64,000 nt of DNA from a virus, in IMG/VR virus record IMGVR_UViG_3300020192_000008, positions 43,273 through 107,272 of that record. One strand, 5' to 3'. Made by a program: the position numbers and the translations under genes. The notes under the pieces are model-generated. The model was not told the origin of the DNA and searched no databases. It saw nothing but the letters and a program-made list of their open reading frames with translations. Position 1 is the first letter of the stretch. The number at the start of each line of letters is the position of its first letter. Of this stretch, positions 822 to 53,595 are shown in pieces.

Positions 822-2471
822 TTACAGAAGGCCCCCGTAGATGTCAGCGCCCAACTCGTCCCAGAAAGCGTCCCGCAGATAGTGGACCGTGAGGGGAGTG
901 AAGAGCTGATCAACTGGTGCCGACGCCAGCTTACTGAACTCACTACCCCTTGGGGCAGATGCGTTCAGAAGTCCTTGTGCGCCGCTCACCAGATCCATGA
1001 GAGTTGTTCGGTACCCGTTGTAGGCAGCTCCTATCTTACGCAGCACTTCTGAGGGATGGGAAGAAGAGGCCCTCTTCTCACCCCCGTCGCTCTTCTTCAT
1101 CACAAGTACACGATGCTCAATCGCAGGCGCGAGAGCAGAGCGTGATTCCATGAGAGGGAGAAGAAGTCTTGCAAGTGAAGGAAGGAAGGAAGCGTGGCCG
1201 AGAGACATACTCTCAGTATCTTTCGATCTGGGGAAGACGATGTTCCGACGATCAAAGTCGTCAGCCATGTCTCTCCGTCCGATCTGAATCAAGACGATAC
1301 GCTGAAACTCCCTGGGACGAAGAACGATGCCCAAACCACCAGAAGTAGACAGGGAGCTGGGCAGGTCATGTTTCCCGAGTGCATCAAGCACATCATCAGG
1401 CAAATCTTCTTCTTCTCTCGACAGAGTGGCCACCGCCTTGCCAGCGAACTGGCTCGGCACAATGTCCTTGATGATCTCACTCTTCTTGAGCTTCGCGTCC
1501 TTGTATTGGAACGCTTCCTTGAAGATTGACTCGTTGAGAGAAGCCGTCTTTTCCCCAACGGTCATCTCGTCGTAGCCGAGCTTCTCCGCCTCATAGGCAG
1601 AAGAGCCGAACGAATAGACGCGCCCCTCAGACGCGATCTTCATCATCGTCTTGGCTGTCTTGTCAGCCCCGATGAAGACGAAAGAGATGTCGAAGAACTT
1701 CGGGAAGTCGTTGTAGACGTACACCTTCCGGCCATCGGCCAGAATCTTGTTCATCTGATTGCGAGCGTGCTCGCAATAGTCCTTCCGAGTGATCGACACG
1801 CCCCGGATAGGGGTCTTCTTATGGATGGCGAGGATGGCCTGGCCCGGAGACGCGTGCTTCTTCGGGTCGAAGGTGGCAGCCGCCTCGTGGTACCGCTTCC
1901 AATCGAGGCAGATGGAGCACGTATCGAAGGGCACCTTGCAGCCCATCGAGACATCCGGAAACATGCCCTGGCTGAGCTTGTCCCAGACCTGCGTGCCCCC
2001 GTACTCCTGGCACTTGAGCTTATCGACCCGAGTAACGAGCTCGACGCGCTTGAGCCTCGGGTGCCAGACAGCCAGCTCCACCTCACCGAAGGCGCGGCCT
2101 GCGTCCTTGTTGCGATGGTGGGCGTAGGGGTGGGCTGAATAGAAGGTCGGGTAGCCGTACGCCCAATCCTTCGCCTTGATCTTGTCGAGCAAAGGGTTGC
2201 CCGTCCAATCATCAGGGCGATGGATCAGGGCAGCTTCTGGGAAGTGATCGCCGTTGACATTGGAGCCGAAGAACTCTCCGGCCCCCATGGCATTGACGAG
2301 GTTGTACGCTGCATCATTCCGGGGCCTGAGCGACTCGATATACTTGACGACGTCAGGAAGAAGTGTGGCTGATGCGGTCTTCTCGAAGTACGCATCAGAC
2401 GCTTTGTTGAAGAGCGGGATGACCGTTGGGCCAGTCTCGCTCTCACCCCAGTATGTGCAGAGCTTGTACAT
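822..2471 (-). CDS. Putative prohead (head maturation) protease
   Basis: 549 residues. The N-terminal half shows a pattern like herpesvirus-fold head proteases: an NGDHF segment near residue 75, a His-rich HPYAHHRNKD segment followed by FGEVE, and a later DVSMG segment where the family places its serine. A Cys-rich patch (CSIC) follows. The C-terminal third is low in recognisable features. Lys-x-Ala motifs (EKTAS twice, MKIAS, FKEA, SKLAS) recur through it. It starts at the ATG of a TTATG junction with the upstream gene, with AGGG about 10 bases before the ATG, and stops at TAA. Position beside head genes fits a maturation protease, but the assignment rests on motif pattern only. Confidence 0.5.
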   Translation of the reverse strand: MYKLCTYWGESETGPTVIPLFNKASDAYFEKTASATLLPDVVKYIESLRPRNDAAYNLVNAMGAGEFFGSNVNGDHFPEAALIHRPDDWTGNPLLDKIKAKDWAYGYPTFYSAHPYAHHRNKDAGRAFGEVELAVWHPRLKRVELVTRVDKLKCQEYGGTQVWDKLSQGMFPDVSMGCKVPFDTCSICLDWKRYHEAAATFDPKKHASPGQAILAIHKKTPIRGVSITRKDYCEHARNQMNKILADGRKVYVYNDFPKFFDISFVFIGADKTAKTMMKIASEGRVYSFGSSAYEAEKLGYDEMTVGEKTASLNESIFKEAFQYKDAKLKKSEIIKDIVPSQFAGKAVATLSREEEDLPDDVLDALGKHDLPSSLSTSGGLGIVLRPREFQRIVLIQIGRRDMADDFDRRNIVFPRSKDTESMSLGHASFLPSLARLLLPLMESRSALAPAIEHRVLVMKKSDGGEKRASSSHPSEVLRKIGAAYNGYRTTLMDLVSGAQGLLNASAPRGSEFSKLASAPVDQLFTPLTVHYLRDAFWDELGADIYGGLL

Positions 2472-3010
2472 AAGGGGCCCTGACCGCCCTTGTTGTTGCG
2501 GCGCTGGTAGGGCTTGGCGACGACCTTGGGCTTGAGCGACTCGGCGAACGAGTTACCTGCGTGCTCACCACCCCTACGCCACGAATCAGCCATGGGGGAC
2601 TTGAACTTGTCGGAGGCCGACAGGCTCTCGGTGAGGATGCCACCGGCTGACATGGGGTTGTCGGCCATGCGGCGCAGATAGGTCCCGGCGACGATCGGGT
2701 CCTTGGCGAAGTTCGGATTCATGTTCCGAAGCGACGAGTACATCTGGTTGAACATCTTCGGGTCGCGCTCGTGATGCTCATGCAGGTCCGGGTTCAGTTC
2801 CAAGATCTGCTTGAAGTCGTGCGACTTGGTGGCCGCATCGTAGATCTTGCCAGCGGCCATGCCGGCGCCGGCGAAGGCAACTCCGGCAGCAGCCATCCCA
2901 AGACCCTGCGTCATCGCATGGCCGAAGCCCTTGGCAGCTTCACCACCGAAGGCGACCTTCTCCTGGGGCTCGCCGTACTGGGCGTAGAAGTCATCGAGGG
3001 GGTTAGACAT
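2471..3010 (-). CDS. Small Ala/Gly-rich virion protein ending at TTA
   Basis: 179 residues if the in-frame TTA at 2473-2471 ends it. Under the standard code the frame stays open to 2225, but those last 80-odd residues are Ser/Arg-rich and are plainly the wrong frame of the protease gene. An Ala/Gly hydrophobic segment lies near residues 35-55 and could span a membrane, followed by a charged alpha-helical region. One EKVAF copy of the Lys-x-Ala motif is present near the N-terminus. The start overlaps the upstream stop as TGATG, so translation is probably coupled. Family not recognised; probably a virion component. Confidence 0.65.
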
Positions 3011-7836: not shown

Positions 7837-8255
7837 AGGCTCTTGATCTTCGCTTCGATGGCTTCGTCGAGCTTCTCGAGGAACTTGTCAGCGTAAGCAT
7901 CGAGGTCGAGGATGTGCCCGAAGCCATCAGCCTGAAACCACCAAGAGTCGACTTCTTGCGTGTAGGCCGCACGCAGCCGTGGGTAGGCTGCGTTGAAGAA
8001 CTCCATGGACGCATCCGAGAGCACCTCGGGGAAGAGGTACCTCCAGTAGTACCCCACCCTCGCGCCCAGATGCTGGATGTCTTTCACCTGGTAGAAGTGG
8101 AAGATAAGGCTTCCCTCGTGGATGCAGACTTCTCCGATGAAGGTCGTGTAGTCCTCGACCTTACGGAAGGTCTTCGCCCTCACCCCCTGCTCCTCCTCCA
8201 TCGAGAGGCGACCCTTCGCTTCCGTCTCCGTCATCTGCTCCGGCTGGTAGTTCAT
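7833..8255 (-). CDS. Conserved-looking small phage protein upstream of terminase
   Basis: 140 residues, acidic, aromatic-rich in the middle (GYYWRYLFPE, SWWFQADGFG). No family recognised. The start ATG lies inside the C-terminal coding part of the preceding gene (95-base overlap) and its TGA overlaps the terminase GTG start. Tight coupling to the terminase suggests a packaging or head-completion role, which is inference from position only. Confidence 0.7.
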   Translation of the reverse strand: MNYQPEQMTETEAKGRLSMEEEQGVRAKTFRKVEDYTTFIGEVCIHEGSLIFHFYQVKDIQHLGARVGYYWRYLFPEVLSDASMEFFNAAYPRLRAAYTQEVDSWWFQADGFGHILDLDAYADKFLEKLDEAIEAKIKSL

Positions 8256-9171
8256 GGTGTTCCTCGAGGAGGTTCATATCCATCGTGTGGTTGCCCTGCG
8301 TCACGTCATCGACGAAGGGCAGCTCAGCCGTGTCGTTACGAAGGGCGATGGAAGCAAGCTGCTCCCTGAGATCCTCGTCTGGCTTGACGATGGCTTCCAA
8401 CGTGTCGGTGATCTTGGCGACACCGTTGGTGTAGTTGATGTACTTTTCCGAATCCTTCGGACCGTTGTTGTACGCCGACTCGAACGCTCTGAGGGCACCG
8501 ATGTACCTGCCTGCTTCAAGAATCTTGGCCAAGTCGAGCTTGGAAGGCATCGTCCCAAGACGCATCTGGGACAGCAGGGCTGATAGAGGCGAGAAGGGCA
8601 GGTCAGCTGCAGTCCTTCTGGCATCTGTGTAGAACGCGCGCTTGAGCGAGTCGTGCTGGCTGCGAATGCCCTCTTCAGTGTGGCTGGCTACCTGGTCTAC
8701 CTCGAACTGCAGAAGAGCTCGCATCTCGGTAGAGTCGAGCAGGTCCACATCCCAGAAGAAGAACTTGTAGCGGGCTACCTCCTGCTCGGTGCAGGCGAAG
8801 CCCTTCTGCCTGGTGAGGGCGTGGGCGATAGCAGCAGGCGGGGCCGATGAGAGAATCATCGCCTCGGTGAACTCTTTGATCCTCGGCGACTTGAGGATGC
8901 CCATGGCACCCATCACCGACTGGTCTGGATGGAAGAGCGTGTAGAGCCCGTTCTTCAGTAGCCACCGCACAGACAAGGGATGGTTCTTGTCGTGCGGGAA
9001 GAACTGAGGAGGAGGCTTGAGCTCTCCACGCAGACGATCGAGGTACCAGAAGCCCAGACTGGAGATCTGAGCGAACTGGCACATCACGATGATCTGATCG
9101 TTCGTGTACTTCTTGCCATGGCAGAGCAGGTACTTGAGGTACCTCTCTGCCGGCGAGCGCCTGATGATCAC
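8161..9171 (-). CDS. Unknown protein; candidate small terminase subunit
   Basis: 336 residues from a GTG start. The region around residues 110-150 (AIAHALTRQKG then TEQEVARYKFFFWDVD) resembles the helix-turn-helix and 'FWD' pattern of small terminase or DNA-recognition proteins. The C-terminal tail is acidic and Gly-rich (DDGDGSEG) and overlaps the next gene by 95 bases. Two tandem in-frame TTA codons of the upstream gene end just before the start. Gene order (this, small protein, large terminase) is what a packaging module would show. The family call is tentative; it could also be a structural protein. Confidence 0.6.
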   Translation of the reverse strand: MIIRRSPAERYLKYLLCHGKKYTNDQIIVMCQFAQISSLGFWYLDRLRGELKPPPQFFPHDKNHPLSVRWLLKNGLYTLFHPDQSVMGAMGILKSPRIKEFTEAMILSSAPPAAIAHALTRQKGFACTEQEVARYKFFFWDVDLLDSTEMRALLQFEVDQVASHTEEGIRSQHDSLKRAFYTDARRTAADLPFSPLSALLSQMRLGTMPSKLDLAKILEAGRYIGALRAFESAYNNGPKDSEKYINYTNGVAKITDTLEAIVKPDEDLREQLASIALRNDTAELPFVDDVTQGNHTMDMNLLEEHHELPAGADDGDGSEGSPLDGGGAGGEGEDLP

Positions 9172-9178
9172 CTAAGGC

Positions 9179-11356
9179 TAACGCCTGCTGGAACGCCAGC
9201 GTCTTGAGACCCTCGATGACATCCTCGAGGTACTTCACGCACTTCTCGAGAGGGCCCTGGGGGATTTTCGAGAGCCCGAGCCTCGACGACATCAGCAGCT
9301 CACAGAGCTTCGCCTGCGTGCTGTTGATCTCCGGCAGGTAGGAGACGAACGTGTGGATGTTCTCGGGGTTCACGAAGCCGATGGAGAGGATCGTGTCGAC
9401 CGAGGTGGGGTCGGGGATGAAGGCCGCCTCCTTGAAGAGGTTGCGCTTGAGGTCGAAGGCGGGGCTCGAAGCGAGCTTCTCCTGGGACTTCCTGCGCGAG
9501 GCCATCTTCACCGACTCGGCAGGCTGGATGTGCCGGCCCACCCGGACGTCGACCGGCATGCCATGGGCAATCGCCTGGGCAAGCTTCGTCTGGGCGTAGC
9601 CGAGGTCTGTACCCAGGCCACCCAACAGGAAGAGCGAGTCGTCGAACGACAGGAAGTGCTTCTCGTCAGACGCCAGCTTGTCGATGGGGAAGCCCTCGAA
9701 CGAGAAGCTGTTGACGCCCCCCGCCCTCACGGTCACCGAAGCAAGCTTCCGCTGGGCGTGCGCCACCTTGTTCCCGCCCTCAGGGGCGCTCACCAGGACA
9801 ACGCTTTCGGCCTTGCCCATGCCCATCCACTTGTAGTCCTTGGGCAGGAGGAACGTACCCTCATCAGCCTGGGTGGGCTTCTGGATGTTGGGCTGCAGAG
9901 AGACTGTGCACTCGCGACCATCGTAGGTCTCGACGTGCAGCTTCTGCTCCCCGTCCGTGACCTTCCCCTTGATGGTCATGGGGATGGTCGCCTCTGTCTC
10001 GTCACCACTCTGACGAACGAACACGCCGGTGCCCGTGGGGGAACCGAACATGAGCTCGCCGTTGGTGCTCTGCAGGCTACCGGCGATCTCCGGCTGCACA
10101 GCCGCCGCCGACCCGTTCGTGAACAGGGCGATGGGCAGAACTGTGCCGTCGAGGTCAGTCAGGTTGGGGAATACGAGCCCCATCATCTCGGTGCCCTCCT
10201 CGTTCTGCACCTTGTACGTGCCGAACTCGGTGATGGGCTTGAGGTCTGCCAGCGGGGCGCCTTCACCCACGGCATCGTCAGTGACGGTGACCGAGCCATG
10301 CTCATCGGCATCCTGGGCGAGCTTCACCCCGAAGTGCTTGATGATGTCGCCTCGGCTGACGGAGTGAGCCTCCTTGACCTGCCAGTACTTGTGGTTCGCC
10401 TCCTTGACCCGGTAGCCCACGTTCTCCTTCGAGACCTGGATGACCGAGGGGCGGATGGCGCTCTCCATCGAGGAAGCCACCTTCTCGCTGGTCACCTGGT
10501 TGGTGTTCCAGATCTTGTTGATGGAGGGGAGGGTGGCGTGGGCGTTCTTCACGTACGCCTGTTGAACCCCAACGTCCTTCATCTCGTGGGCGAAGGAAGT
10601 AAGGTCGGAGCTCAGTGCTGTCGGAAGGATGGCCTCGAGCAGAGAGGCTGACTTCTCCACACCAGTCAGGTCATGACCCGAGGTCTTGAGGTCAGACTCG
10701 TTCGGGTCCTTCTTGAAGCCCTTGAGCTTCTTGGCATCGACACCAAGCACCTTCGACAGGCGCTCTGCGAACTGCGCCTTGTTCTTGTCTTCGGCCGTCT
10801 TGGTCTCAACGTGCAGCTGCTCACGCAGGTAGTACTCGAGATCTGAGCTGGTCTTGCCCATCATCCCGCCGGCGCCACCCATGCCGCTGCCATCCCGGTG
10901 GGGCGGGTAGATCTGACTGGCCATCGACGTGTCACCTGGCGTCTTGCTGGTGACATCGAAGGTCTGTGGGCGGAAGAGGGCTTCCTTCAGACGCCGCTCG
11001 GTGAGGGGAAGAACCTTCGAGTCACCAGTAACGATGAGGTCGAGGGGCTGAAGCTTCTTGTCCTTGACCACCACCGGGATGCGAACCGACTTCACGCCCA
11101 CGGCGTCCTTGGCCTGGTCGCTTGCGCCTTGCTGCAGCTCGGTCTTGTTGGAGATCTCAATGTGGCCGAATGCAAAGCCACGCTCACCATCGATTCGATC
11201 CATCACCGTGTGAGGCTCGAAGTCCGAGATGAAGGGGATCTGCTTGTACGCTTCCTGCAAGATCTCCTGCGACCACTGGTTCGGGTCTTCAGGAAGAACA
11301 GTCTCAGCGGCCGTCTTCTGGATCGGCAGGATGGAGTCGAGGTAGAGGTTCGTCAT
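9179..11356 (-). CDS. Large virion protein rich in Lys-x-Ala motifs, ends at TTA
   Basis: 725 residues to the first of two tandem in-frame TTA codons (9181-9179 and 9175-9173). The standard-code frame runs to 8675, but the extra 168 residues are a wrong-frame reading of the next gene. At least a dozen Lys-x-Ala motifs occur (QKTAA, TKTAE, EKSAS, EKVAS, VKLAQ, RKLAS, DKLAS, TKLAQ, VKMAS, EKLAS, FKEAA). A Gly/Met-rich linker lies near residues 165-180 and the middle is beta-rich. It lies between a hydrophobic tail protein and the packaging genes. Family unknown; a large inner-capsid or tail-associated protein is likely. Confidence 0.72.
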
Positions 11357-21055: not shown

Positions 21056-22308
21056 GCGTATCTCTCGAGACCATCCTCTCCACGTCCTTCCTCGTCCCCC
21101 TCGGGGACCCGCTCAAGCCCAACTGCTACTGGGGCCTGAACGTCATGCTCTGGGGCAGCCCCGGCATCGGCAAGAGCGCACGCGTCAGGTCTGCTGCCGC
21201 CAAGGCGGGTCTGCCCACCGAGGTTGTCATCGCCGCAACGCGCCAGCCCGAGGACGTGTCGGGCGCTGCCTTCCCCGACGGCCAGGGCGGCGTGAACATC
21301 AAGACCCTGCTGCCAGGCGTCCAGCGCCTCATCAAGGACGAGCAGGGCGTGCTCTTCCTCGACGAGCTCTCCTGCGCCAGGCCCGCTGTGCAGGCAGCCT
21401 TCCTCGGCGTCGTACTCGATCGCAGGGTCGGTGACGACATGCTGCCCCCAGGCATCCGCGTTCTCGCTGCTGCCAACCCCCCCGAAGAAGCCGCCGGCGG
21501 CTGGGACCTCGAGCCCCCCATGGCCAACCGGTTCTGCCACGTCAACGTCCCCGCCCCCGTCGTTGCCGAGTGGACGGCCTGGTTCCTCAGCCAGTCGAGC
21601 GGCAGGGTCGAAGACGTCGAGATGGGTGAGAAGAAGGTCCAGGAAGGCTGGGGTGAGAACTGGCCGGCTGTGCAGGGCCTCGTCTCAGGCTTCCTGCAGG
21701 ACCGCTCGTCGGCTCTCTACAGCATGCCCAAGGAGGGCTCGAAGGACCGCTCGAGGGCCTGGCCTTCCCCACGCACCTGGGAGATGGCCGCTCGCAGCAT
21801 GGCCACCGTGCGCTGCCTCTTCCCCCTGCCCACCGGCAAGCCCCTCTCCGATGAGCAGAAGAAGGAGCACGCTCGCAAGACCGCTACCCACGACATCCTC
21901 ATGTCCACCCTGCTCGAGGGCTGCATCGGTCGCGGCGTTGCCGCTGAGTTCATCAACTGGGTCAAGGCAGCTGACCTCCCCAGCCCCTCCGATGTCCTCA
22001 AGTTCGGCTACGTCGTCGACAAGCGCCGGCTCGACATCGCCATGGCTGCCTACAGCTCCATGATCTCCTACGTCCTCACCAAGCCCACGCGCGATGAGAA
22101 GGTCGCCCTCGCCTCCCTCGCCTGGACCCGACTCCATGAGCTCAGCAAGCAGGGCCTGGCCGACATGGCCATCCCCAACATCCAGGCCATGATCTCCAAC
22201 GACCTCGGCACCCGCGCTGGCAAGAAGGAAGTGAACGATGCCATGCGGCCTCTGCTCATGGACTTCATCAAGCGCGGCCTCGAGAAGTACATGATCGAGG
22301 ATAAGTGA
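21052..22308 (+). CDS. MoxR-family AAA+ ATPase
   Basis: 418 residues. Walker A GSPGIGKS near residue 37, Walker B GVLFLDEL near 99, sensor-1 AAANP near 141 and an ANRF segment at 162 where MoxR proteins carry the second-region Arg. MoxR ATPases remodel or insert cofactors into partners that usually contain VWA domains. The gene immediately downstream is exactly such a partner, two or three bases away, so the pair is probably one chaperone system. Unusual in a phage among structural operons. Confident on family; substrate unknown. Confidence 0.85.
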   Translation: MSVSLETILSTSFLVPLGDPLKPNCYWGLNVMLWGSPGIGKSARVRSAAAKAGLPTEVVIAATRQPEDVSGAAFPDGQGGVNIKTLLPGVQRLIKDEQGVLFLDELSCARPAVQAAFLGVVLDRRVGDDMLPPGIRVLAAANPPEEAAGGWDLEPPMANRFCHVNVPAPVVAEWTAWFLSQSSGRVEDVEMGEKKVQEGWGENWPAVQGLVSGFLQDRSSALYSMPKEGSKDRSRAWPSPRTWEMAARSMATVRCLFPLPTGKPLSDEQKKEHARKTATHDILMSTLLEGCIGRGVAAEFINWVKAADLPSPSDVLKFGYVVDKRRLDIAMAAYSSMISYVLTKPTRDEKVALASLAWTRLHELSKQGLADMAIPNIQAMISNDLGTRAGKKEVNDAMRPLLMDFIKRGLEKYMIEDK

Positions 22309-32944: not shown

Positions 32945-33350
32945 AGAAGTCCCGCACGAAGTGAAAGAGTTCCTTGAGGCTCAGGACCGCATCATCCGCT
33001 ACCGGGAGGCTCACCCCGATGTCTTCGAGACGTACGAGGAGCTTGCCTCCACGTACAACGACAAGCTCGAGGCAGCTGACAAGGTCGTCCGGGGCGGGGC
33101 GCTGAGCGTGGGGCCCTTCGAGAAGTACCAGGTCCAGAACAGCTACGACGCCGACAAGCTGTTCGAGGAAGTGGGTATGGAGAAGTTCCTGGCCATGGGT
33201 GGCACCATCAAGACGAAGGCTGTCTACGAGGTGGACCCCAACCGCCTCAAGGCCGCCATTGCTCAGGGCACTGTGCCAGCTGACGTGGTGAAGAAGGTGC
33301 ACAAGGAGACACCGAAGTACCACAAGCCACAGAAGCTGGTGGTCAGGTGA
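32928..33350 (+). CDS. Unknown charged protein
   Basis: 140 residues, lysine- and glutamate-rich, predicted helical with a short beta segment (FLAMGGTIKTKAVYEVD). Start chosen at the ATG with AAGGGG seven bases upstream. Overlaps the glycosylase end and the next GTG start (GTGA). No family recognised. Confidence 0.65.
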   Translation: MKTKTEEVPHEVKEFLEAQDRIIRYREAHPDVFETYEELASTYNDKLEAADKVVRGGALSVGPFEKYQVQNSYDADKLFEEVGMEKFLAMGGTIKTKAVYEVDPNRLKAAIAQGTVPADVVKKVHKETPKYHKPQKLVVR

Positions 33351-33670
33351 GGACGGCGAAGTTCAACGCGCTCTCCGTCAAGGAGCTTTCTGCCAACTTC
33401 ATCAGCTCTGACCCAGCGCTTGAGGGCAAAGCAGCCTTCGTCAGCACGCTGACGCAGAAGACGCATGGTCAGACCATTGGCAAGGTCTGGAGCAAGGACA
33501 CCCTCGACTTGCTCACCCAGCTCAAGGCCTCGATGGAAGCAGACCTCGAGACGGTTCACTTCGCTGACGGGCCGACCAGTTCTTCCATCAACCAGCAACC
33601 TCGTCAGATCGACGAGGCTTTTGAGGGTGGGGGCATAGGCGAACACATCGGTGGTGAACGTCAAGTGTTA
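33347..33670 (+). CDS. Unknown small protein ending at TTA
   Basis: 107 residues from a GTG start that overlaps the upstream TGA. In-frame TTA at 33668-33670 ends it if TTA is a stop; a TGA follows three codons later, so this case is only weakly informative. The sequence is polar with one predicted helix (LDLLTQLKASMEADLE) and has no recognised domain. Confidence 0.6.
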
Positions 33671-33775: not shown

Positions 33776-35158
33776 ATGGCTAGCAGCGAGCACCAGCTCA
33801 TTTCCCTGATCATGAAGACAGGGGATTTGAAGACAGTACTCGAGTGGGGGATCACCGAAGACGATCTCCTGATGAACGACACGAACTCGGCGTTCAAGAT
33901 CTTGATGTCGGTGTACACGAGCCCCGATTCAAGGGGCGCTGTACTTGGGCCGTCATCAGCACTTGAGAGGTACCTGCCCGCGTGGCAGTTCGAGGTTGAT
34001 GCGGGCATGACGCTCAACTTCCTTTGCAGCGAGGTGCGCAAGCGCAGGCTGTCGAAGGAGCTGAAACTCAAGGCACAGGCCTGCATCGAGTACGCAGACC
34101 TCAACCCTGAGGAGGCATTCAACCAGTTGAACGAGGCAGTGACCCTCTACCGCAACATCGATGCCGGCAAGTCAACAGACGTTGACCTGGCAACGGGCAT
34201 GAAGAAGGTCATCGCGAAGTACAACAAGGCCAAGAACGGGCAGAGCATCGGCCGGTTCATGTGGCCTTGGAAGCCTCTGCAAGAGGCTACTGGTGGTGTG
34301 GCTGACGATGAGTTCGCCGTCTTCTACGGCAGGCCCAAGAGCATGAAGTCTTGGATCTTGATGTACCTCATCACCTTCGCCTTCGAGATGAACCAGAAGG
34401 TTCTCTTCTACACCAAGGAGATGACCGACGAGCAGTGCTACCAGCGGATGGCCGCCATCATGGTCGGCGCTCTCTACCAGGACCTGCGCCTGGGCAAGCT
34501 GCCTGCCTTCCAGGAAGAGCAGCTGCACGTCATCCAGCAGGTGGCCGAGGAGATGGCCTCGAAGAACAGGATGATCTGCCTCACGGCCAAGGACGTCGCT
34601 GGCAGGGACACCCCCAGCTGGCTGCGAGGCAAGATCGAGAAGTACCACCCCGACGTTGTCTTCGTCGACGGTCTGTACCTGATGAGCCCCGAGGCTCGCC
34701 GTAAGACGATGCAAGACCACGAGCGTGTTCGGGAGATCTCCCGTGACGTTCGACGCATCGTTCTCGAAGAGAAGGTCCCGCTGATGGCCACCATGCAGGC
34801 CAACCGGCAGGCAGCGAAGCACTCTGAAGGCAACCTTGATGAGATCGCCTTCTCTGACTCGCTCTCGCAAGACTGCACCATGGCTTGCCGGGTGATGTCC
34901 GACAAGCACCAGCCCACCATCAGCCTCGTGATGGCCGGCTCTCGTGAGTGGACGCTCGACGGGTTCCGGGTGCACGGCATCCCAGCGAGCAACTTCAGCT
35001 TCCACTCGGTTCTGACCAGCAAGGAGATCGAACAGGTCAGGAAGAACGACGAAGAGGAGGACGAGCCGAAGGACAAGAAGCCCGTACGTCAGCCCCGCAC
35101 GTTGGGGGCAGAGAAGCCTGCTCCCAACTACAAGAAGACGCTCGAGAACATGCCGTTA
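33776..35158 (+). CDS. DnaB-like replicative helicase, ends at TTA
   Basis: 460 residues to the in-frame TTA of a TTATG junction; the standard-code frame runs to 35266 but the last 35 residues are a wrong-frame reading of the primase. The RecA-like core has an altered Walker A, GRPKSMKSW near residue 190, and Walker B VVFVDG near 295, followed by Gln/Arg-rich DnaB-type segments. It should unwind the fork for the polymerase. The 60-residue C-terminal tail is charged and disordered. The next gene is the primase, the usual partner. Confidence 0.83.
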
Positions 35159-36126
35159 TGGACAGGCACTCGGAGGTACTTGCTATCGCACAGAAGTACC
35201 TTCACAAGGTCAAGAAGAGCGGGCCAGACAACGTCATGGCGTTCTGCCCCTTCCACGACAACGTGAACACCCCGGCGTTCACGATGTCGTTGACCAAGGG
35301 CATCTGGTTCTGTTTCTCATGCCACGCCAAGGGAACACTCAAGATGTTCCTCAAGGCGATGGGCATAGGCGAGGGTCTTGTTCAGACGCACTACGGCTCG
35401 CTCATCGACGCCCTACGCAAGAACGTAGACCCGGCCTTTGATCCCAACAAGCCTGGGGTCATCTGCCAAGAGCCTCTCGACGAAGCCATCCTCGGGTTCT
35501 TTCACGAGTGCCCGATGGATCTAATCAACGAGGGCTTCACCGAGGAAACCCTGCTCCACTTTGGGGTGGGGTTCGACAAGAAGCACAACCGCATCACGTA
35601 CCCCATCCGAGACTTCACGGGGAACCTGGTCGGCATCAGCGGGCGCACTGTTACAGGTGCCTACCCGAAGTACAAGGTCTACGACCTGGAGTACAAGGAC
35701 TTCGGTCTGGGCGTCTACCACACCGACAAGTCTCGGTACCTCTGGAACTCGAGCGAGGTCTACCCTCAAGTCTACTTCTCAAGGGGCGAGAAGGTCGTGC
35801 TCGTTGAGGGCTTCAAGGCCTGCATGTGGGCCTGGCAAGCGGGTATAAAGAATGTGCTAGCCCTTCTAGGCTCATCAATGTCAGCCCAACAGAAGTGGGT
35901 GCTTGAGCGTCTAGGCGCACCGGTGTACCTCTGGCTAGACAACGACGACGCCGGCCGTAATGGCACGAAGAAGATTGGCGATGATCTGTCCAAGTCCTTG
36001 GACGTGTTTGTCATCGGCTACGAAGAAGCGCAACCGAGTGATCTCGCCCTTGAAGATGTCCAGAGTAAAGTCGCCTCCGCGACGGACTATCACCTGTGGG
36101 CAGTAAGAAAGTACCTGAAAGGTTTA
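35158..36126 (+). CDS. DnaG-type primase, ends at TTA
   Basis: 322 residues. A CHC2 zinc finger opens the protein (CPFHDN ... CFSCHAKG, residues about 25-55). The TOPRIM catalytic core shows VVLVEGFKA near 217 and YLWLDNDDAG near 260. It makes RNA primers for the replicative helicase upstream. The ATG is the TTATG of the helicase end; its own end is TTA followed directly by TGA, and that TTATG supplies the start of the next gene. No C-terminal helicase-binding domain of normal size is seen, so it is a short phage-type primase. Confidence 0.85.
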
Positions 36127-37283
36127 TGAACATGGGCTCCTACGGCAAGACTGATATGAAGAACGCCCCGACCACCTTCCGCCAGTCGGTGGCCAGCCAG
36201 CAGAAACAGAAGCCCGAGAAGACTGGTGCTGGCGGGGGGAACGTCCCCTACTTCGTCAACCAGTTCAAACCCTCGACGGAAGAGCCAGACGTGGTGCGCC
36301 TCCTCAAGGGGGAGTACCCGGTCCAGCTGGCTGGGCAGAACGGTGAGCTGGTCGAGCAGACGCTCGCCTACTACATCTACCGCGAGCACTTCGATGGCCG
36401 TACCAACAAGAGCGCCATCTGCTCAGCGGGACCGTTCGCGATGGACCGCAAGAAGCGCCAGCCCTGCGATGGCTGCGACATCTACTGGGAGGAGCGGTCT
36501 GCGGGCAAGAAGCAGAACAACCGCATGTCCAACCGGGAGATGTACGTCTTCTCGATGCTTCATCACGCCAACTACGTGAAGACCGAGCAGCTCGACCGCA
36601 ACACCGGCGCCGTGAAGGTGAACGATGACGGCCAGCCGTACATGAACTGGGTACGGATGATGGCCCACGAGCGTGGGAAGTTCGCTGGCAAGGAGATGAA
36701 GGACGCCAACGCCCTTCACTGGGCCATGGGCTTCAACCACTTCAACGTCATCCGCGAGTACGACAAGCAGATCGGCAAGTCGTGCAGGGCGTGTGGTGTG
36801 AAGGCTGGGCGCAAGGGCGCTCACGAGGTCGGGGTCAAGAGCGAGGCGTGGTGTTGCCAGGGCTGCGGGGAGGCGCTCATCGAGGTCGACTCAACGGAGC
36901 TGGCGCCCAAGCAGATCGACGAGATCACGTCTGACGTGGTCGAGTGCGCTGTGTGCAAGCGTGTCGGCTACCTGCAGGAGATGGTGTCCTGCACCGAGTG
37001 CTCGGATGGAACGCGCTCGGAGATCTTCGACGTGGACCTGGAGGTTCAGCGGGTGAAGCCTGCTGATGGTGGCAACCAGACGGTGCTGGCCATTGTGGGC
37101 TGGGCGAACCCGCACCCCATCGACCCTCGGCATGTGGAGATTGCCAGGCCGCTGGAGCTGCCGAAGATCTACGCGCCTACCCCGCTCGAGCGTCAGCACG
37201 AGCTCTTCGGTAGCTCGGGGAGGCAGCCGGTCACCGCTGGCAGCAAGCCCTACGGCGGGCCTCCGACTCTCGGCGGCAAGTTA
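36126..37283 (+). CDS. Multi-zinc-ribbon protein of the replisome block, ends at TTA
   Basis: 385 residues to the in-frame TTA at 37281-37283; the standard-code frame adds seven codons that run into the terminator stem. At least three Cys clusters (CDGC, CRAC with CQGC, CAVC with CTEC) give two or three zinc ribbons. The first 200 residues contain an alpha/beta domain with conserved-looking aromatic residues. Lying between primase and polymerase, it may be a single-stranded-DNA-binding or loader protein, but I cannot match it to gp32. An alternative start lies upstream at 36096. Confidence 0.68.
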
Positions 37284-37358: not shown

Positions 37359-39752
37359 ATGGCCTGGAAAGTCGATATCCCAGACGCAGAGTTTTACACC
37401 CTCCAAGACCCCCGTCTAGAGGCAATCGTTCGAGAGGTCTGCGATCAGAAGATCGTTGCCATCGACACCGAGACCACGGGTCTCATCATCTGGCGAGACA
37501 TGCCCCTGTTCTGGTCCCTCTCTTGGGGACGCCGGCGCATCTGCATGCCCGCTGACACGCTGCACAGGTTCATGTCGGCCTTCGAGGATTACGACAAGAC
37601 CTGGGTCTTCGCCAACGCGAAGTACGACATGCACATCCTGGCTAACGTCGGCATCACCCTCAAGGGGAAGATCGTCGACACCCAGGTGATGCACTGCTTG
37701 CTCTACGAGGAGCAGCCACACCGACTCGACTACATGGGCAAGCAGCTCCTGGGTTGGGAGTGGAAGGACATGTTCGATGGCTGGGACAAGCGCAAGCAGC
37801 CCAACATCGGCGACTTCATCATGGACCTGTACCGCAACGATCCACGCAAGCTCATCGAGTACGCGTCGAACGATGCCTACGGCACCATGCAGATATACGA
37901 CAAGCTCAAGGTGGAGCTCGAAGAGTCGTGGGTCTACAGCCTCTACCCCGAGCACTACAAGACGCTCTGGGACATCTTCATCAAGACCGAGGCGCCGTTT
38001 ACCAAGGTCCTGTGGAAGTGCGAGAGGGCAGGCATCTACGTAGACAAGGAGTTCCTCCTCACTCTCGAAGGGCCCGTGGCTAGGGAGATCAACGACCTGA
38101 AGAAGGAGCTGAACGCGCTCTACCAGGCGTATCAGCCGGGCGTCCTGTTCAACCCGAACAGCACCCTGCAGAAGCGCGACTGGTTCTTCAACTTCGAGGG
38201 TCTCAAGGCCGTGAAGCTGGGCAAGGCTGGGGCGAAGACGGGGGTACGCAACCCTTCATGCGACGCCGAGTTCCTTGACCACTACAAGGGCGAATCGAAG
38301 ATGGCCAAGCTCCTCCTGAGGTTTGCCGAGCTCGACAAGCTGCACGGTACCTACCTGGTGGGCCTTCGAGAGTCAGACTCGATCGATAGCCAGGGCTTCA
38401 TCCACACCCGGTACAACCAGGACGTGGCTCGTACAGGACGCCTGTCCTGCGTAGCCGGCTGGACGCCCGTTCGGACCACCCGTGGTGCCGTTGCCATGGA
38501 GAATATTCGACCGGGCGATTCTGTCTGGACCCACAAGGGGCGTTGGCAGCAGGTGACGGCGTTCCTTCCGCAGGGAGAAAGGCACGTTTACGACGTTAGG
38601 CTTAGCAACGGGTATGTTTTGACGTGCACAACCGACCACAGGCTGCTGCTCTCCGATGGGTGCACGTGGGCCACGATTGAGGAGGTGACTGATGGCGTTC
38701 TCGAAGACCTGGACCAGCAACCCGAAGAACAACGCGCTCGACAACCTCGCGGTTGTGACGCGGCAGGGCCACAAGACCGTTCACTTCTTGCAGGTGAAGG
38801 ACACGGGCTCGTTGTCGTTGAAGCGATCGACTATCGCGGCGTGCTTGAGGTCTACGACATCAGCGTAGACGGGGACGAGAGCTACGAAGCCTGCGGAGTA
38901 TTCGCGCACAACTGCTCTGACCCGAACCTGCAGAACATGCCGAACCCTGAGCGGGACAAGTTCAAGACCCGCAAAGCGTTCCGCCCCAAGCCCAGCACGA
39001 AGCGCAAGCTGATTGCCGCCGACTATGACCAGCTCGAGATGCGTCTTCTGGCTTGCGCTGCGATGGAGCCACCCATGATCGACATCTTCCTCCAGGGGAA
39101 AGACATCCACATAGGCAACGCTTCACTCGTCTTCGGACTGCCCTATGACGATATCAAGGCAGCGAAGGATAAGGAGAAGAACGAACTCAACGACTACGAT
39201 CACACGTGCCTTCTTGCACGGCAGAACGTCAAGGCCATTGGTTACGGGCTCAACTACGGAATGAAGGAGTTCAAACTCGCTTCGGATCTGGGAATCCGTG
39301 TTGAGGAAGCCAAGGCCCTCATGGACAAGTATATGTCGGCTTATCCGGCTGTCGAGAGGTTCTTCGCAGAAGCTGTCGATAATGCTCGGATCACCGGGTA
39401 CTCGTTCACCGTCATGGGGCGGAGGAGGTTCTTGCCGGAGATCATCTCCAGGAGAAACCAAGAGAGGAGCAAGGCAGAACGACAAGCGGGCAACTTTGAG
39501 ATCCAAGGGTCAGCCGCTGACGTTGTACGCATGGCGATGATCCTTCTGGATGACGCCCAGCTAGACAAGAGGTTCGACTGCATCATGCGCCTTCAGGTGC
39601 ACGACGAGTTGGTCTTCGACTGCCCTGAAGAGACGCTCACTCCTGCGATGGGGGAGATCGTCGAGTGGATGGAGCATGCGCTTCACACCGACCTGCCGGT
39701 GCCCTTGAAGGTCTCGGCCAAGGCTGCCGACAACTGGGCGGACGCACACTGA
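37359..39752 (+). CDS. polA: DNA polymerase I (family A) with mini-intein
   Basis: 797 residues before splicing. 3'-5' exonuclease motifs: AIDTETTG near 32, FANAKYD near 86, YASNDAYG near 167. Polymerase motifs: A, ADYDQLEMRLL near 550; B, RQNVKAIGYGLNYG near 622; C, VHDELVF near 747. The intein (364-518) interrupts the conserved TGRLS/CSDPNLQNMP segment. Without the intein it is about 642 residues, normal for a phage Pol I lacking the 5' nuclease. It replicates the genome with the helicase and primase upstream. Confidence 0.93.
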   Translation: MAWKVDIPDAEFYTLQDPRLEAIVREVCDQKIVAIDTETTGLIIWRDMPLFWSLSWGRRRICMPADTLHRFMSAFEDYDKTWVFANAKYDMHILANVGITLKGKIVDTQVMHCLLYEEQPHRLDYMGKQLLGWEWKDMFDGWDKRKQPNIGDFIMDLYRNDPRKLIEYASNDAYGTMQIYDKLKVELEESWVYSLYPEHYKTLWDIFIKTEAPFTKVLWKCERAGIYVDKEFLLTLEGPVAREINDLKKELNALYQAYQPGVLFNPNSTLQKRDWFFNFEGLKAVKLGKAGAKTGVRNPSCDAEFLDHYKGESKMAKLLLRFAELDKLHGTYLVGLRESDSIDSQGFIHTRYNQDVARTGRLSCVAGWTPVRTTRGAVAMENIRPGDSVWTHKGRWQQVTAFLPQGERHVYDVRLSNGYVLTCTTDHRLLLSDGCTWATIEEVTDGVLEDLDQQPEEQRARQPRGCDAAGPQDRSLLAGEGHGLVVVEAIDYRGVLEVYDISVDGDESYEACGVFAHNCSDPNLQNMPNPERDKFKTRKAFRPKPSTKRKLIAADYDQLEMRLLACAAMEPPMIDIFLQGKDIHIGNASLVFGLPYDDIKAAKDKEKNELNDYDHTCLLARQNVKAIGYGLNYGMKEFKLASDLGIRVEEAKALMDKYMSAYPAVERFFAEAVDNARITGYSFTVMGRRRFLPEIISRRNQERSKAERQAGNFEIQGSAADVVRMAMILLDDAQLDKRFDCIMRLQVHDELVFDCPEETLTPAMGEIVEWMEHALHTDLPVPLKVSAKAADNWADAH
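38448..38912 (+). mobile_element. DNA polymerase mini-intein
   Basis: 155-residue insertion beginning with Cys and ending His-Asn, with Cys as +1 extein residue. Block A (CVAGWTPVRTTRG) and block B (TCTTDHRLL) are clear, and the C-terminal block reads VLEVYDISVDGDESYEACG. No endonuclease domain is present in this frame; a central stretch of about 40 residues is Gln/Arg/Gly-rich and looks out of frame. A shifted frame inside it holds an HNH-like segment. Self-splicing should restore motif A's upstream loop. Confidence 0.88.
38692..38868 (+). CDS. Nested HNH-like ORF inside the polymerase intein
   Basis: 58-residue frame, shifted relative to the intein. ATG is preceded by GGAGGTGA six bases upstream, an ideal ribosome site, and a TGA closes the frame just before. 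Residues 10-27 (NPKNNALDNLAVVTRQGH) resemble the C-terminal half of HNH homing endonucleases of the NN..L.NL type. The catalytic His pair is not seen, so it is either a decayed remnant or a separately translated accessory. Low confidence as a functional gene. Confidence 0.35.
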   Translation: MAFSKTWTSNPKNNALDNLAVVTRQGHKTVHFLQVKDTGSLSLKRSTIAACLRSTTSA

Positions 39753-44008: not shown

Positions 44009-44348
44009 GGAACTGCTCGGGGCCTGCAACCACACCGAGCTGCACCAGATCTGCAGGCGTATGGACATCCATGTCAGACCGACCGCAAGCCGGGAAGACA
44101 TGATCGACTACATCTGCGGGAATGATGAACCCCCTCCGCCATGGCACGGCATCAATGCCTGGCGACATGCCCTCATGGGCTTCGTTCTCGACAACTGGGA
44201 ACTCATACGTTCTCAGATCTCCTGCCCGGCTAAGTCTGGTGACCCGCGTGCCTGCTTCGGTTGTACCGATACGCAGGTGATGTTCTGTGTTGTCGACAAT
44301 CACGACAACGAGTCTCTCATCCAGCTGCACAAGAAGGATCAACCATGA
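43983..44348 (+). CDS. SAP-like domain and Cys-rich protein
   Basis: 121 residues. Residues 6-40 (FEELLGACNHTELHQICRRM, then TASREDMIDYI) follow the SAP-like helix-extended-helix pattern used for DNA binding. The C-terminal half has four Cys (CPAKSG, CFGC, FC) that could bind metal. A similar SAP-like pattern is found in the frameshifted tail of the next gene. Start placed at the ATG inside the RusA-like end. Confidence 0.6.
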   Translation: MSSSIRSFEELLGACNHTELHQICRRMDIHVRPTASREDMIDYICGNDEPPPPWHGINAWRHALMGFVLDNWELIRSQISCPAKSGDPRACFGCTDTQVMFCVVDNHDNESLIQLHKKDQP

Positions 44349-45052
44349 ACGCTCCCGCAACCACGATGCCCAGCCCCGAGACCGCTCCCCGCACGCCCGA
44401 GGAGCTGACGAAGATGACCGTCTTCCTCCAGCGCAGGCTGGCCGAGCAGCTCAACTCGTCGGGCTTCCCGGTCTGGACGAGCGAGCCGGAGAAGACGGCC
44501 TTCATCACCGAGACCAGCGAGAAGCGCGGGATGATCTTGGCCGAGAAGCTGGCCGCCTTCGACAAGGCCCGTGGCGGTGCTCCCGCCGCTGCAGCTCCGG
44601 TGGCTACGGTGACCCCCATCACCCCGCCGACGGAGGCAACGCCGGCGCCCGCCACGGCCAGCAAGCGTCAGCCCAAGACGCAGGCGGCTGCACCTCCTCC
44701 GGCAGCTGCCCCCGCTGTCAGCGGTGAGCAGGGGGTGCTCTCGTCCGAGGTCGTCAACCTGCTCAAGACGGTCTCGACCGACCTGAAGAACCTGCACGGG
44801 ATGACCGATGCGAGGATCGAAGGGGTGGAGAACCGTCTCGATGGCGGCAAACTCGTCACCAAGGGCGACCTCGTGGAGCTCAAGGACATGCTCACGGCGT
44901 CGATGCGCGTGCAGCAGGCCACGCTCGGGGTGCTCTGCCTGTTCGGGCAGGAGGTGCTCAAGGCCTCCACCCGTGACGTGATGGGTCCGGCGATCGAGGA
45001 GGCGAACAACGCCCTCGACGCTCTGGAGGAACTGGGCAAGGGAAAAGCATTA
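44345..45052 (+). CDS. Ala/Pro-rich protein, 0-frame product ending at TTA
   Basis: 235 residues in the zero frame, ending at the TTA at 45050-45052. The standard-code frame continues to 45208, but the extra sequence is Ser/Arg-rich shadow. It has an N-terminal helical domain (60-80 residues), a Pro/Ala-rich linker near 80-135 and a C-terminal coiled coil (residues 150-235). A slippery heptamer just before the end gives a probable longer -1 form. ATGA overlap with the upstream gene. Family unknown. Confidence 0.65.
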
Positions 45053-50487: not shown

Positions 50488-50841
50488 TAAGAAGGAGTTC
50501 ACATCAGGGAAGCTGGGGTTGATCTTCGTGCCCGCGAATGAGTACTTCAAACCTTCTTCGATGACCCAGATGCTCAGGTCACCCAGCGCCTTGCGGATCT
50601 TGTAGAGACTCGACTTGCTCACCCCGTTGTTAGGTCCGTGATACCCCCGGGCCATCTCGAGGGTGATGGGCTGAATCTTGTACCGGTAGGTGAACTCGTA
50701 ATAGGGACTGCCGCCAAGCTTCTTGATGGCCTCCCAGAGCTTCTCGTACGTCTCCTTGTCTTCGGCGCTGAGCCGGTACTTCTGCGAAGGCTTCACCTTC
50801 TTGGTGCCTTCGTAGAACCTGCGCAGTCTTCGGAGGCTCAT
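50488..50841 (-). CDS. Unknown basic protein ending at TTA
   Basis: 117 residues to the in-frame TTA at 50490-50488 (standard-code frame to 50440). Lysine/arginine-rich N-terminus followed by helices; the middle GVSKSSLYKIRKALGDL looks like a helix-turn-helix. The ATG overlaps the upstream TGA as ATGA and the next gene's ATG follows the TTA by one base. A DNA-binding role is plausible but not proven. Confidence 0.6.
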
Positions 50842-51047
50842 GGCATGGCTTTCCGAGCGTGAGGTTTGATGCGAGCTACTAGCTCAGCCCCCACTGTTGT
50901 ACCGCTTTCTATCGAAGACCTGCGGGCCTCTGCAACGAGCTGTTCTACCTGCTGCAGACACCACTGGTAGGCGGGCTTTTCATACGCCCCGTCCTCGGCG
51001 ATGGTCCGCTGTACGTGCCGTGCGTAAGCACGAAACTCGTGGGCCAT
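50838..51047 (-). CDS. Small unknown protein
   Basis: 69 residues, predicted all-helical, with mixed charge (QWCLQQVEQLVAEARRS). Its ATG lies 23 bases before the probable TTA end of the nucleotidase. The open frame reaches upstream to 51569, but that part is an Arg/Ser-rich shadow of the nucleotidase. Family unknown. Confidence 0.55.
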   Translation of the reverse strand: MAHEFRAYARHVQRTIAEDGAYEKPAYQWCLQQVEQLVAEARRSSIESGTTVGAELVARIKPHARKAMP

Positions 51048-51594
51048 TGTGCTTCGCGTAGTAGATGACGTCCTTCCAGTCGCCGGTACGGAAGTAGTCC
51101 GTCTCGGCGTTGTACGGCTGCGCCCAGACGATGCCGAGGCCATCAGGATGGTGGTCCATCCACTCGATGATGTGGCTCTCCTTGTCGTCAACGAGGATGT
51201 CCCCCTTGCAGACGTACTTGGCGTGGGTCTGGATGACCTTGTTCTGGCGGAAGCCGAAGTGCTTGTAGAGCCACTCGCCCCGCTCGTACGCCCAGTGCCG
51301 GCTGCTGTGAGGGGCCGTGACCACGTAGACGTCAGCCACCTCAAGCAGCTTGGGGATGCCCTCGAGTGCGGCCTGGTAGGGCTCGATGCCAAGGACCACA
51401 CCAGGCGTCTCGTGGATGTAGCCCCAGAAGTCCTTCTCGATGAGGTCCCCGTGCTTGCTGAACAGGTCCCACATGTCGAGCTCCTCTTCCTTGAGCTCCT
51501 TGCCCGTCTTCTCGGAGATCCATCCAAGGGCAAGCTTGACGAAGTTCGCCAGCACACCATCACAGTCAACCAGCACGCGCTTACGTGGTCCCAT
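51025..51594 (-). CDS. 5'-deoxyribonucleotidase (HAD, NT5C type), ends at TTA
   Basis: 189 residues from the ATG at 51594, which has AAGGAG upstream; a TTG at 51600 is also possible. HAD motif I DCDGVLANF near 9, motif II VVTAPHSS near 90 and motif III/IV region DILVDDKESHI near 130. It dephosphorylates deoxynucleoside monophosphates, probably dUMP/dTMP, or salvages the host pool. In-frame TTA at 51027-51025 ends it; the standard code would add 14 shadow residues to 50980. Confidence 0.8.
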
Positions 51595-51682
51595 CTTCAA
51601 CTCCTTCTCCCAGCTTCTCTAGCTCGGCTTTCGCATCATCCATCTCTCGCTGAAACCACGGCTTGCTGTTTTCATCCGCCAT
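51581..51682 (-). CDS. 33-residue acidic peptide between thyX and nucleotidase
   Basis: Starts at the ATG of the TTATG junction ending thyX and stops at TAA inside the start of the nucleotidase gene. Acidic, helical (QREMDDAKAELEKLGEG). The overlaps at both ends support translation. Unknown role. If TTA were leucine this frame would still be open, but thyX would overrun it by 63 bases. Confidence 0.55.
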   Translation of the reverse strand: MADENSKPWFQREMDDAKAELEKLGEGVEDGTT

Positions 51683-53595
51683 AACGACTCCTTGATGAGT
51701 GCGAAGTTGTGTTCACCGGGGATGGTCTTGCGATGCTGGACCCACCCCTGGACATTGCCCAGGAAGTGCGTGCAACGATCGACGTCTATCCACGCCTTGT
51801 TGAGCTCATCCCACTCGTAGACGGGCTGGTAGAACATCTCGAGCTCCTTCTCCGTCATGGGCCTGCACGGGTGCTCGAGGGGGCTCATGTGCCCAGGCTT
51901 CACGAGCCTGTCGTAGAGCTCGAGGTCCTTGGAGATGTCGCGCTTGCCATCGTGGGCGAGGGCAGAGACGCGGGCGCAGCGGGCTGCGGAGACCTTCACC
52001 AGCTCAAGCCGTACCTCAGTCGTCGTGTCGCTCCAGGAGTAGTAGCTTGCGTCGCCACCGTCGACGTACGGCAGGTGCCACTCACCGTGCTTGAGCTGCT
52101 TGGGCTCGCTCTTGTCGTAGACATCCTTCATCATCCCCGCGACCATCTGCATCTCGGGTTGAGCGTTGGGGTCGCAACGCAGGGCGAAGAAGTTGTCCCA
52201 CTCGGTCGCGGTACAGATCACAGTCTGCCAGCCCCACGGCTCGAGCAGGCGGTTGGCATGCTGCTTGTGTACAGCGAGGTTGAACAGGCCCTGAGCTGCA
52301 CGGACGCACGCATCAAGCGCATCCGTCCAGTGCTTGGACGCTTCGTGGTTGGAGAGCTCGCTCATGACCTCGGTTGCCTGCATCCCCTTCTGGTTCTTGG
52401 TGAAGGCGATGGGTACGAAGGGGTTGGCCTTGACGCGCTCGATGTTCTTCTCGACGGGGATGGCCCTCGAGGAAGCTGAGTTACGGCTGTTGTGCACGAC
52501 GACCCCATTCGCGAGGAAGTTGGGGTACTTCCCCACGATCTCGAGGTCGTAGGTTGGCTCTTGGCCCCGCGAGACGATCTCGTCGATCCGTGCGAGAGAC
52601 CCGTACAGATACGTGCCGCCCTGCCAGCCCTGCTTCTCGTGCATCGCGCAGTGGCAGTCGTCGCACAAGAGCGTGACGTTAGTCTCTTCCAGAGCCAGAG
52701 AAGGATCCTGATGCACCGGAACGACGTGGTGGATCTGGTTGCCTTTCTCGGCGCAACAGCGACGACACATGGCGTCCATCGACCGCATCCTGTCGCGCAT
52801 CTGGCGCTGCCACACCGAACGCCACTTGCCATCGATCTTCTTCAGACGCAGCGGGTCAGTTCTGTCGTCGTCCTTCTTGCCGAACTTCCTGACGACGAGA
52901 AGGTCGCCCTTCTGTAGGTCTTCGATGCGGCGCCACCCCTCTGCCGTGAGTACGCGGTGGTCCCTACTACCGGCGATGCGGAAGTCGCCCGCCCTCACCT
53001 CGAACACCTCCTTGGTGCCTGACGGGTGGGCAGTCACGACGTGCGACGTTTGGATGTCCCCGGTGTCCTCGTTGAGTTGACGGATGGCCATGCCCGCGAG
53101 CTTCGCGCGCATGTCGAAGCGTGTGTGCTCCGGTTTGCTACTACGCCACACGATCAGGTCTCGACCGAAGATGATCCAAGTCCTCCCGTTGGTGCTGAAT
53201 CGTTCGGCCTTGATGTACCCGTCACGGCACAGCTTGTTGATGTTGCTTGGGTTGGCCATCCCAAAGCGAGAGGCAGCTTCCTGCGCGGTGTAGCGCTCAT
53301 CGGGGTTGATCCACGAAGTATCGTAGTTCGTCTTGGGGTTGGCTCCGACGCGGTCGGCGCCGTTCGACCACTTGTCGACGAACTCGGCGATCGTCATGCG
53401 GTACACTCGGCGGTGCTCCCCCTTCCTGCTCCCTGCGGGCGAGTCGAACTCCAGCATCGAATCCCCTGCGAGGCAGAAGACCCGGTGTGTGTTGTACTCA
53501 GCCAGGATGAACCTGGGGAACGTGCACTCGATGGTGGTGATGCGGTGCCCTGAGGGGCTGATGCTGTCGGCGATGATCTTGGCTGCGTAGTTCAT
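51682..53595 (-). CDS. thyX: Flavin-dependent thymidylate synthase ThyX with HNH intein
   Basis: 637 residues before splicing, ending at the TTA of a TTATG junction (standard-code frame to 51619). The ThyX signature is split: NTHRVF at 35-40 joins SRNSASSRAIP after residue 369 once the intein is removed, giving the conserved HR..S...SSRAIP loop. The C-terminal extein has HMSPLEHPCRPM near 560. The mature enzyme (about 308 residues) methylates dUMP to dTMP with FADH2 and methylenetetrahydrofolate. Start at the ATG preceded by AAAGGGATAG; the long frame upstream is shadow of the DUF262 gene. Confidence 0.92.
52489..53475 (-). mobile_element. ThyX intein with HNH endonuclease
   Basis: 329 residues (41-369), starting CLAGDSMLEF and ending VVVHN with Ser as +1 residue. 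Splicing blocks include GSRDHRVLT. An HNH endonuclease lies in the second half (CRRCCAEKGNQIHHVVPVHQ, then NVTLLCDDCH). A MerR/excisionase-like segment (TAQEAASRFGMANPSNINKL) precedes it and may give DNA-target specificity. It interrupts the ThyX signature loop, so splicing is required for activity. Confidence 0.88.

Follow-up and report, generated by a model that had tools for sequence, protein, structure and literature searches.

Apparent use of the leucine codon UUA as a stop codon in an uncultured bacterial virus

The locus considered here raises the question of where thyX ends, and whether an in-frame TTA, ordinarily a leucine codon, is what ends it. The window, meaning the whole stretch of 64,000 nucleotides under analysis, comprises bases 43273-107272 of a 107,272-base phage contig with a GC content of about 60%, and positions below refer to the window unless the contig is named. 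The thyX frame opens with an ATG at 53595 on the minus strand and its 3′ part reads ...AAG GAG TCG TTA TGG. The TTA at 51684-51682 shares its A with the ATG (51682) of the next open reading frame (ORF), and we could confirm the resulting TTATG at 51684-51680, which an earlier note on this DNA had pointed out. If the TTA is not a stop, the thyX frame runs 20 codons further to a TAG at 51621-51619. The earlier note had also stated that thyX would then overrun the small ORF entirely, which is incorrect, as the read-through frame halts at that TAG and covers just 64 of the ORF's 102 bases.

We compared the carboxyl terminus of the encoded protein with those of its relatives. The protein matched the ThyX family profiles (PHROG 85, E = 2e-73; Pfam Thy1, E = 1e-10), with the HNH intein interrupting the match, and a PDB search with its C-terminal part returned no match. 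In ThyX proteins of more distant phages, 7-23 residues separate the conserved Q of the Q(Y/H)RK motif from the C-terminus; the same distance in the studied ThyX is 18 residues if the protein ends at the TTA (...ALIKES), versus 39 if it ends at the TAG. ThyX of two related phages ends within 1-2 residues of the TTA position. Relatives with at least 20 conserved residues past this point, which the earlier note had named as evidence against a TTA stop, did not appear in this comparison.

The same note had proposed that the junction hides a 33-residue gene. The acidic ORF opened by the TTATG has the sequence MADENSKPWFQREMDDAKAELEKLGEGVEDGTT, its peptide includes MADENSKPWFQREMDD..., and its TAA (51583-51581) does fall, as had been described, inside the start of the 5′-nucleotidase gene, 14 bases past the ATG at 51594. 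A good ribosome-binding site, AAGGAG, precedes the ATG of the small ORF, and the nucleotidase gene behind it has an AAGGAG of its own. The codon-usage score of the ORF was +2.3, which is mildly gene-like, versus -3.4 for the overlapping thyX tail. BLAST of the 33-residue peptide against the gene sets of the related phages gave no match. We consider it plausible that the ORF is a small coupled gene; owing to the TTATG overlap, a ribosome that ends thyX on UUA could immediately reinitiate at the AUG of the ORF.

For gene prediction along the full contig we used a self-trained codon model that gave TTA no weight. TTA is the rarest codon, with 20 in-frame occurrences among 30,518 codons. With TTA counted as a stop, the contig's coding score rose from 6135 to 6531, a larger gain than that from any of seven other rare codons tried, and the prediction comprised 117 genes (118 in a re-run), ending in TGA (66), TTA (18), TAG (17) and TAA (16). 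By this prediction about one gene in seven of this uncultured bacterial virus ends with TTA (Table 1). The three usual stops remain in use, with TGA, TAG and TAA ending about 99 of the 117 genes, and the predicted genes align with those of relatives under the standard code. Neither tRNA genes nor an RF-1 (release factor) domain were found on the 107-kb contig, which may represent about 57% of the genome because the largest relatives reach 185-190 kb. Inteins or intein-like inserts are present in three core genes: thyX (HNH type), the large terminase (4939-7836, minus strand, with a weak LAGLIDADG match) and DNA polymerase A (37359-39752, plus strand, with a Hint/intein-splicing domain).

Codon usage on either side of the TTAs also indicates that they end genes. 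The codon-usage score was positive before and negative after the TTA in 15 of 16 in-frame cases, versus 11% for all other codons (Fisher p = 5.5 × 10−14). When each sense codon was measured for how often the next 40 codons look non-coding, TTA reached 95%, AGA 42% and CTA 18%; TTA alone among sense codons regularly precedes non-coding codon usage, and no other sense codon acts like a stop. In the clearest case (8675-11356), the score was +202 before the TTA and -63 over the 165 codons after it, and the next gene begins at 9171. Several TTAs near the fronts of ORFs stand ahead of the likely true start.

Table 1. Predicted features of the thyX junction and TTA-ended genes of the window
Feature	Position	Strand	Basis or remark
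TTA stop codon of thyX, in TTATG overlap	51682..51684	-	Sequence, homology, codon usage
thyX, 637 codons with intein, ends with TTA	51682..53595	-	
HNH intein in thyX	52489..53475	-	Intein_splicing and HNH domains
33-codon acidic ORF opened by TTATG	51581..51682	-	AAGGAG 5 bases upstream; without relatives in related phages' gene sets
5′-nucleotidase (NT5C, 189 aa), ends with TTA	51025..51594	-	One relative ends 2 aa away
117-aa protein, ends with TTA	50488..50841	-	Gene prediction
179-aa protein, TTA end in TTATG overlap	2471..3010	-	
Large terminase with intein, TTA end is facing plus-strand gene's TAA	4936..7749	-	25/26 relatives end at exact residue
725-aa structural-region protein, TTA end; second in-frame TTA at 9173-9175	9179..11356	-	13/19 relatives exact
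107-aa protein, ends with TTA	33347..33670	+	Homology comparison
DnaB-like helicase, TTA end in TTATG overlap	33776..35158	+	Profile matches
DNA primase, TTA end in TTATG overlap	35158..36126	+	Profile matches, homology comparison
385-aa protein between primase and DNA polymerase, ends with TTA	36126..37283	+	Homology comparison
235-aa protein without relatives, ends with TTA	44345..45052	+	Gene prediction

We gathered a family of related phages by terminase and helicase searches and compared the TTA-ended proteins with relatives predicted under the standard code. Among the 13 TTAs in genes with relatives, none was crossed by homology and 12 marked the point where it stops; of 24,587 other codons, 20,517 (83%) were crossed and 1,131 (5%) stood at homology ends (Fisher p = 1.2 × 10−15 for homology ends and 7 × 10−11 for crossing). 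Where the studied phage has TTA, its relatives have TGA, TAG or TAA at that residue or close to it. For a 126-aa protein, 11 of 14 relatives end exactly at the TTA residue, and the terminase has the C-terminal residues ...GPTNQG just before its TTA. The one exception among the 26 terminase relatives has a read-through tail of 49 residues, the same length as that of a second phage, G020, described below. Apparent homology crossings of TTA proved to be merely the read-through tails of the two TTA-stop phages aligned to each other. As judged from these alignments, the in-frame TTAs show the distribution that a reassigned codon should have, lying at gene ends, at sites occupied by standard stops in relatives, and being absent inside conserved coding sequence.

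The junction found at thyX, which had been claimed to recur in a different operon and strand, does so: TTATG joins genes at 2471 on the minus strand and at 35158 and 36126 on the plus strand, and further such junctions lie at contig positions 12910 and 13819, giving six TTA ends that overlap the next start. TTATG is in these predictions the counterpart of the usual TAATG or TGATG stop-start overlap. In three convergent pairs, including the terminase, a single triplet supplies the TTA of one gene and, on the opposite strand, the TAA of the gene that faces it (4936-4938; contig 7990-7992 and 21914-21916), and the G020 terminase has the same arrangement (10005-10007 of L082).

We also examined other viruses for the same codon usage. 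In G020, a diverged 75-kb phage whose terminase is 68% identical to that of the studied phage, none of six TTAs was crossed by homology and four were at the homology end; counting TTA as a stop raised its coding score by 175 and gave 10 TTA-ended genes. TTA also ends the G020 terminase at the corresponding place, and 23 of 27 relatives end exactly there. Two short TTA-ended ORFs of G020 have no relatives, and in one frame of 1118 codons the sequence after a TTA at codon 778 looks mildly coding, which we take to be a second gene. At least one relative thus appears to use the TTA stop as well. All four TTA codons tested, which make up three gene ends, are retained in a contig of 21 kb that comes from a separate assembly and is 99.9% identical to the studied phage (21 SNPs in 20 kb).

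The remaining relatives differ in their use of TTA. It is crossed inside conserved genes in G024 (7 of 9), G027 (11 of 13) and G029 (12 of 17) and is a sense codon there, and G012, G018, G021, G023 and others are nearly without it. Contigs of these four named phages (L078-L081, L086-L093, L112-L124) have 0-3 TTAs each where about 10-56 would be expected from the other leucine codons, a deficit suggestive of avoidance or of an unassigned codon. The terminase tree separates the two TTA-stop phages into distinct supported subclades, both of which also contain TTA-poor phages, and the TTA-sense phages placed on it fall elsewhere; this pattern fits a history in which TTA first became rare and was then captured as a stop. 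G011 was considered as a TTA-stop candidate on account of the few TTAs near its thyX and was rejected, TTA being sense over its whole length. This distant 44% GC phage, which shares ThyX (L104-L111), strongly under-uses the codon (141 TTA versus 328 CTA). Further searches for close relatives among viruses, in which the polymerase and the G020 terminase served as queries, produced no additional TTA-stop phage. tmRNA genes occur in G029 (L138, 3109-3475) and G027 (L145, 17402-17751), with the tags ANDNATPALAVDKAA and ANDNATAALPIAA.

We conclude that TTA is very probably a genuine stop codon in the studied phage, used beside TGA, TAG and TAA, and that this looks like a leucine-to-stop reassignment of UUA. 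The proposal that thyX is terminated by its TTA has held up, since the ends of ThyX relatives, the genome-wide pattern and the second phage all agree.

We next consider what might read UUA as a stop. RF2 normally reads UAA and UGA, and because UUA differs from both only at the second base, an RF2 with relaxed second-base reading would be the simplest agent. UUA termination would then fall to a class I release factor, most probably host RF2, in a host in which UUA is no longer decoded as leucine, and TTA would have become very rare, as in the many relatives nearly without it, before its capture as a stop. The TTA-ended genes serve replication (helicase, primase), nucleotide metabolism (thyX, nucleotidase) and packaging; because all gene classes have TTA ends, the stop would work throughout infection, which suggests the host as its source. 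We infer that a host release factor is the agent, a view we hold with slight preference. Whether UUA is a stop for the host bacterium too, with phages of at least two lineages having adapted to it, we judge to be an even call; it would be the first sense-to-stop code outside organelles. The one terminase relative with a host label, from a search of genome contigs, lies in a Myxococcota metagenome-assembled genome, which we rejected as a UUA-stop host as it has tRNA-Leu(UAA) and a normal RF2. Among 395 sampled Myxococcota genomes, a pattern test for RF2 with Gly or Ala at the SPF serine found none. The tRNA-Leu(UAA) pattern was present in 344 of the 395, and the stretches from 18 genomes lacking it that were long enough to analyze use TTA as sense. 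No UUA-stop bacterium was found in these limited genome scans.

A rather unlikely alternative, which concerns the role of the host and leaves TTA as a stop, is that the phage directs the change itself. A release factor, a protein that modifies one, or an enzyme that removes or alters tRNA-Leu(UAA) would be encoded in the unassembled part of the genome, and a host with the standard code would be switched during infection. Some 80 kb may be missing when the 107-kb contig is set against the largest relatives, and the variation of TTA among related phages (stop, nearly absent or leucine) is easily understood if the phage brings the change. However, an RF-1 domain was present in none of 13 related records, several of them 185-190 kb long, and no viral contig had an RF2 with Gly or Ala at the SPF serine by the pattern tested. 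Early-type genes (helicase, primase, thyX) end with TTA as do late ones. Only three genes are common to the studied phage (G000) and G020 and rare in other relatives, and none resembles a translation factor.

We think it improbable that UUA is simply unassigned in the host, with neither tRNA-Leu(UAA) nor a release factor for it, and that rescue of stalled ribosomes makes TTA a crude stop. The many relatives nearly without TTA would suit this explanation, and recoded E. coli is described as resolving unassigned codons by mistranslation and ribosomal rescue (PMC6207430). Rescue by tmRNA, however, would mark the terminase, helicase, primase and ThyX for destruction; the TTATG overlaps suggest clean termination and restart, and TTA ends about as many genes as TAG or TAA.

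That TTA is an ordinary leucine codon, ThyX being 21 residues longer and the TTATG and 33-codon ORF arising by chance, is very improbable. The rarity of TTA is by itself no obstacle, as about 15 would be expected for the rarest codon at 60% GC, but those that exist lie at gene ends or ahead of likely true starts, homology crosses none of them, relatives end exactly at TTA, and one gene would gain the tail of about 165 non-coding-like codons noted above. Least credible of all is an artefact in which a TGA or TAA was misread as TTA through assembly error or a modified phage base: TTA is one base from both and TGA often stands there in relatives, but the same TTAs occur in the separate, SNP-bearing contig, G020 has TTA at the same terminase position in another record, and nothing is amiss with the TGA and TAA stops in the rest of the contig.

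Termination on a leucine codon in a bacterial virus would carry sense-to-stop changes into prokaryotes and would point to an unrecognized bacterial genetic code or to a new form of phage takeover of termination. It would also be a natural example of codon capture, its intermediate stages (TTA as sense, nearly absent or as a stop) being seen among related phages. Standard annotation would wrongly lengthen TTA-ended genes and can conceal small ones. A screen of 250,000 genomes by Shulgina and Eddy could not, by its own statement, detect new stop codons (PMC8629427), and sense-to-stop changes are likewise undetectable by Codetta, as stated in its paper (PMC9825746); because of this blindness, further cases may be hidden. 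In the open-access literature we found UUA stops reported from organelles and none from bacteria or phages, although reports elsewhere are possible, and the phage recoding found there was all stop-to-sense. In recoded phages, among them crAss-like and Lak phages, a stop such as TAG has come to encode an amino acid (PMC9523058, PMC8346664). These phages resemble the studied phage in that the standard code mispredicts their genes, and differ in direction, as here a sense codon becomes a stop on a contig without tRNA genes.

The closest known systems are organellar. UUA is a stop in the mitochondria of labyrinthuleans, which use the Thraustochytrium code (NCBI table 23). UUA and UCA are both stops in the plastids of pedinophyte-derived dinoflagellates, which the authors of a 2025 paper call the first such stops outside mitochondria (PMC12574857). 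In both organelles, as in the studied phage, UUA occurs at 3′ ends where relatives have normal stops and not within genes, and the standard stops are also in use. The proposed agents in organelles are a change of RF2 serine 204 to Ala, Gly or Cys, or a change in RF1a (PMC12574857). The organelles thus have a proposed release-factor change, and the plastids lack the cognate tRNA gene, whereas the present case is a bacteriophage whose contig has no RF-1 domain; moreover, the plastids use UUA and UCA, whereas only TTA behaves as a stop in the phage. In the mitochondria of Marsupiomonadales and Pseudoscourfieldia, UUA and UUG are stops (PMC12574857). There both UUR codons and RF1a are involved, whereas TTG is a normal sense codon in the studied phage, but the change is again from leucine to stop, and, much as in this phage group, one genome is without codons that serve as stops in its relatives.
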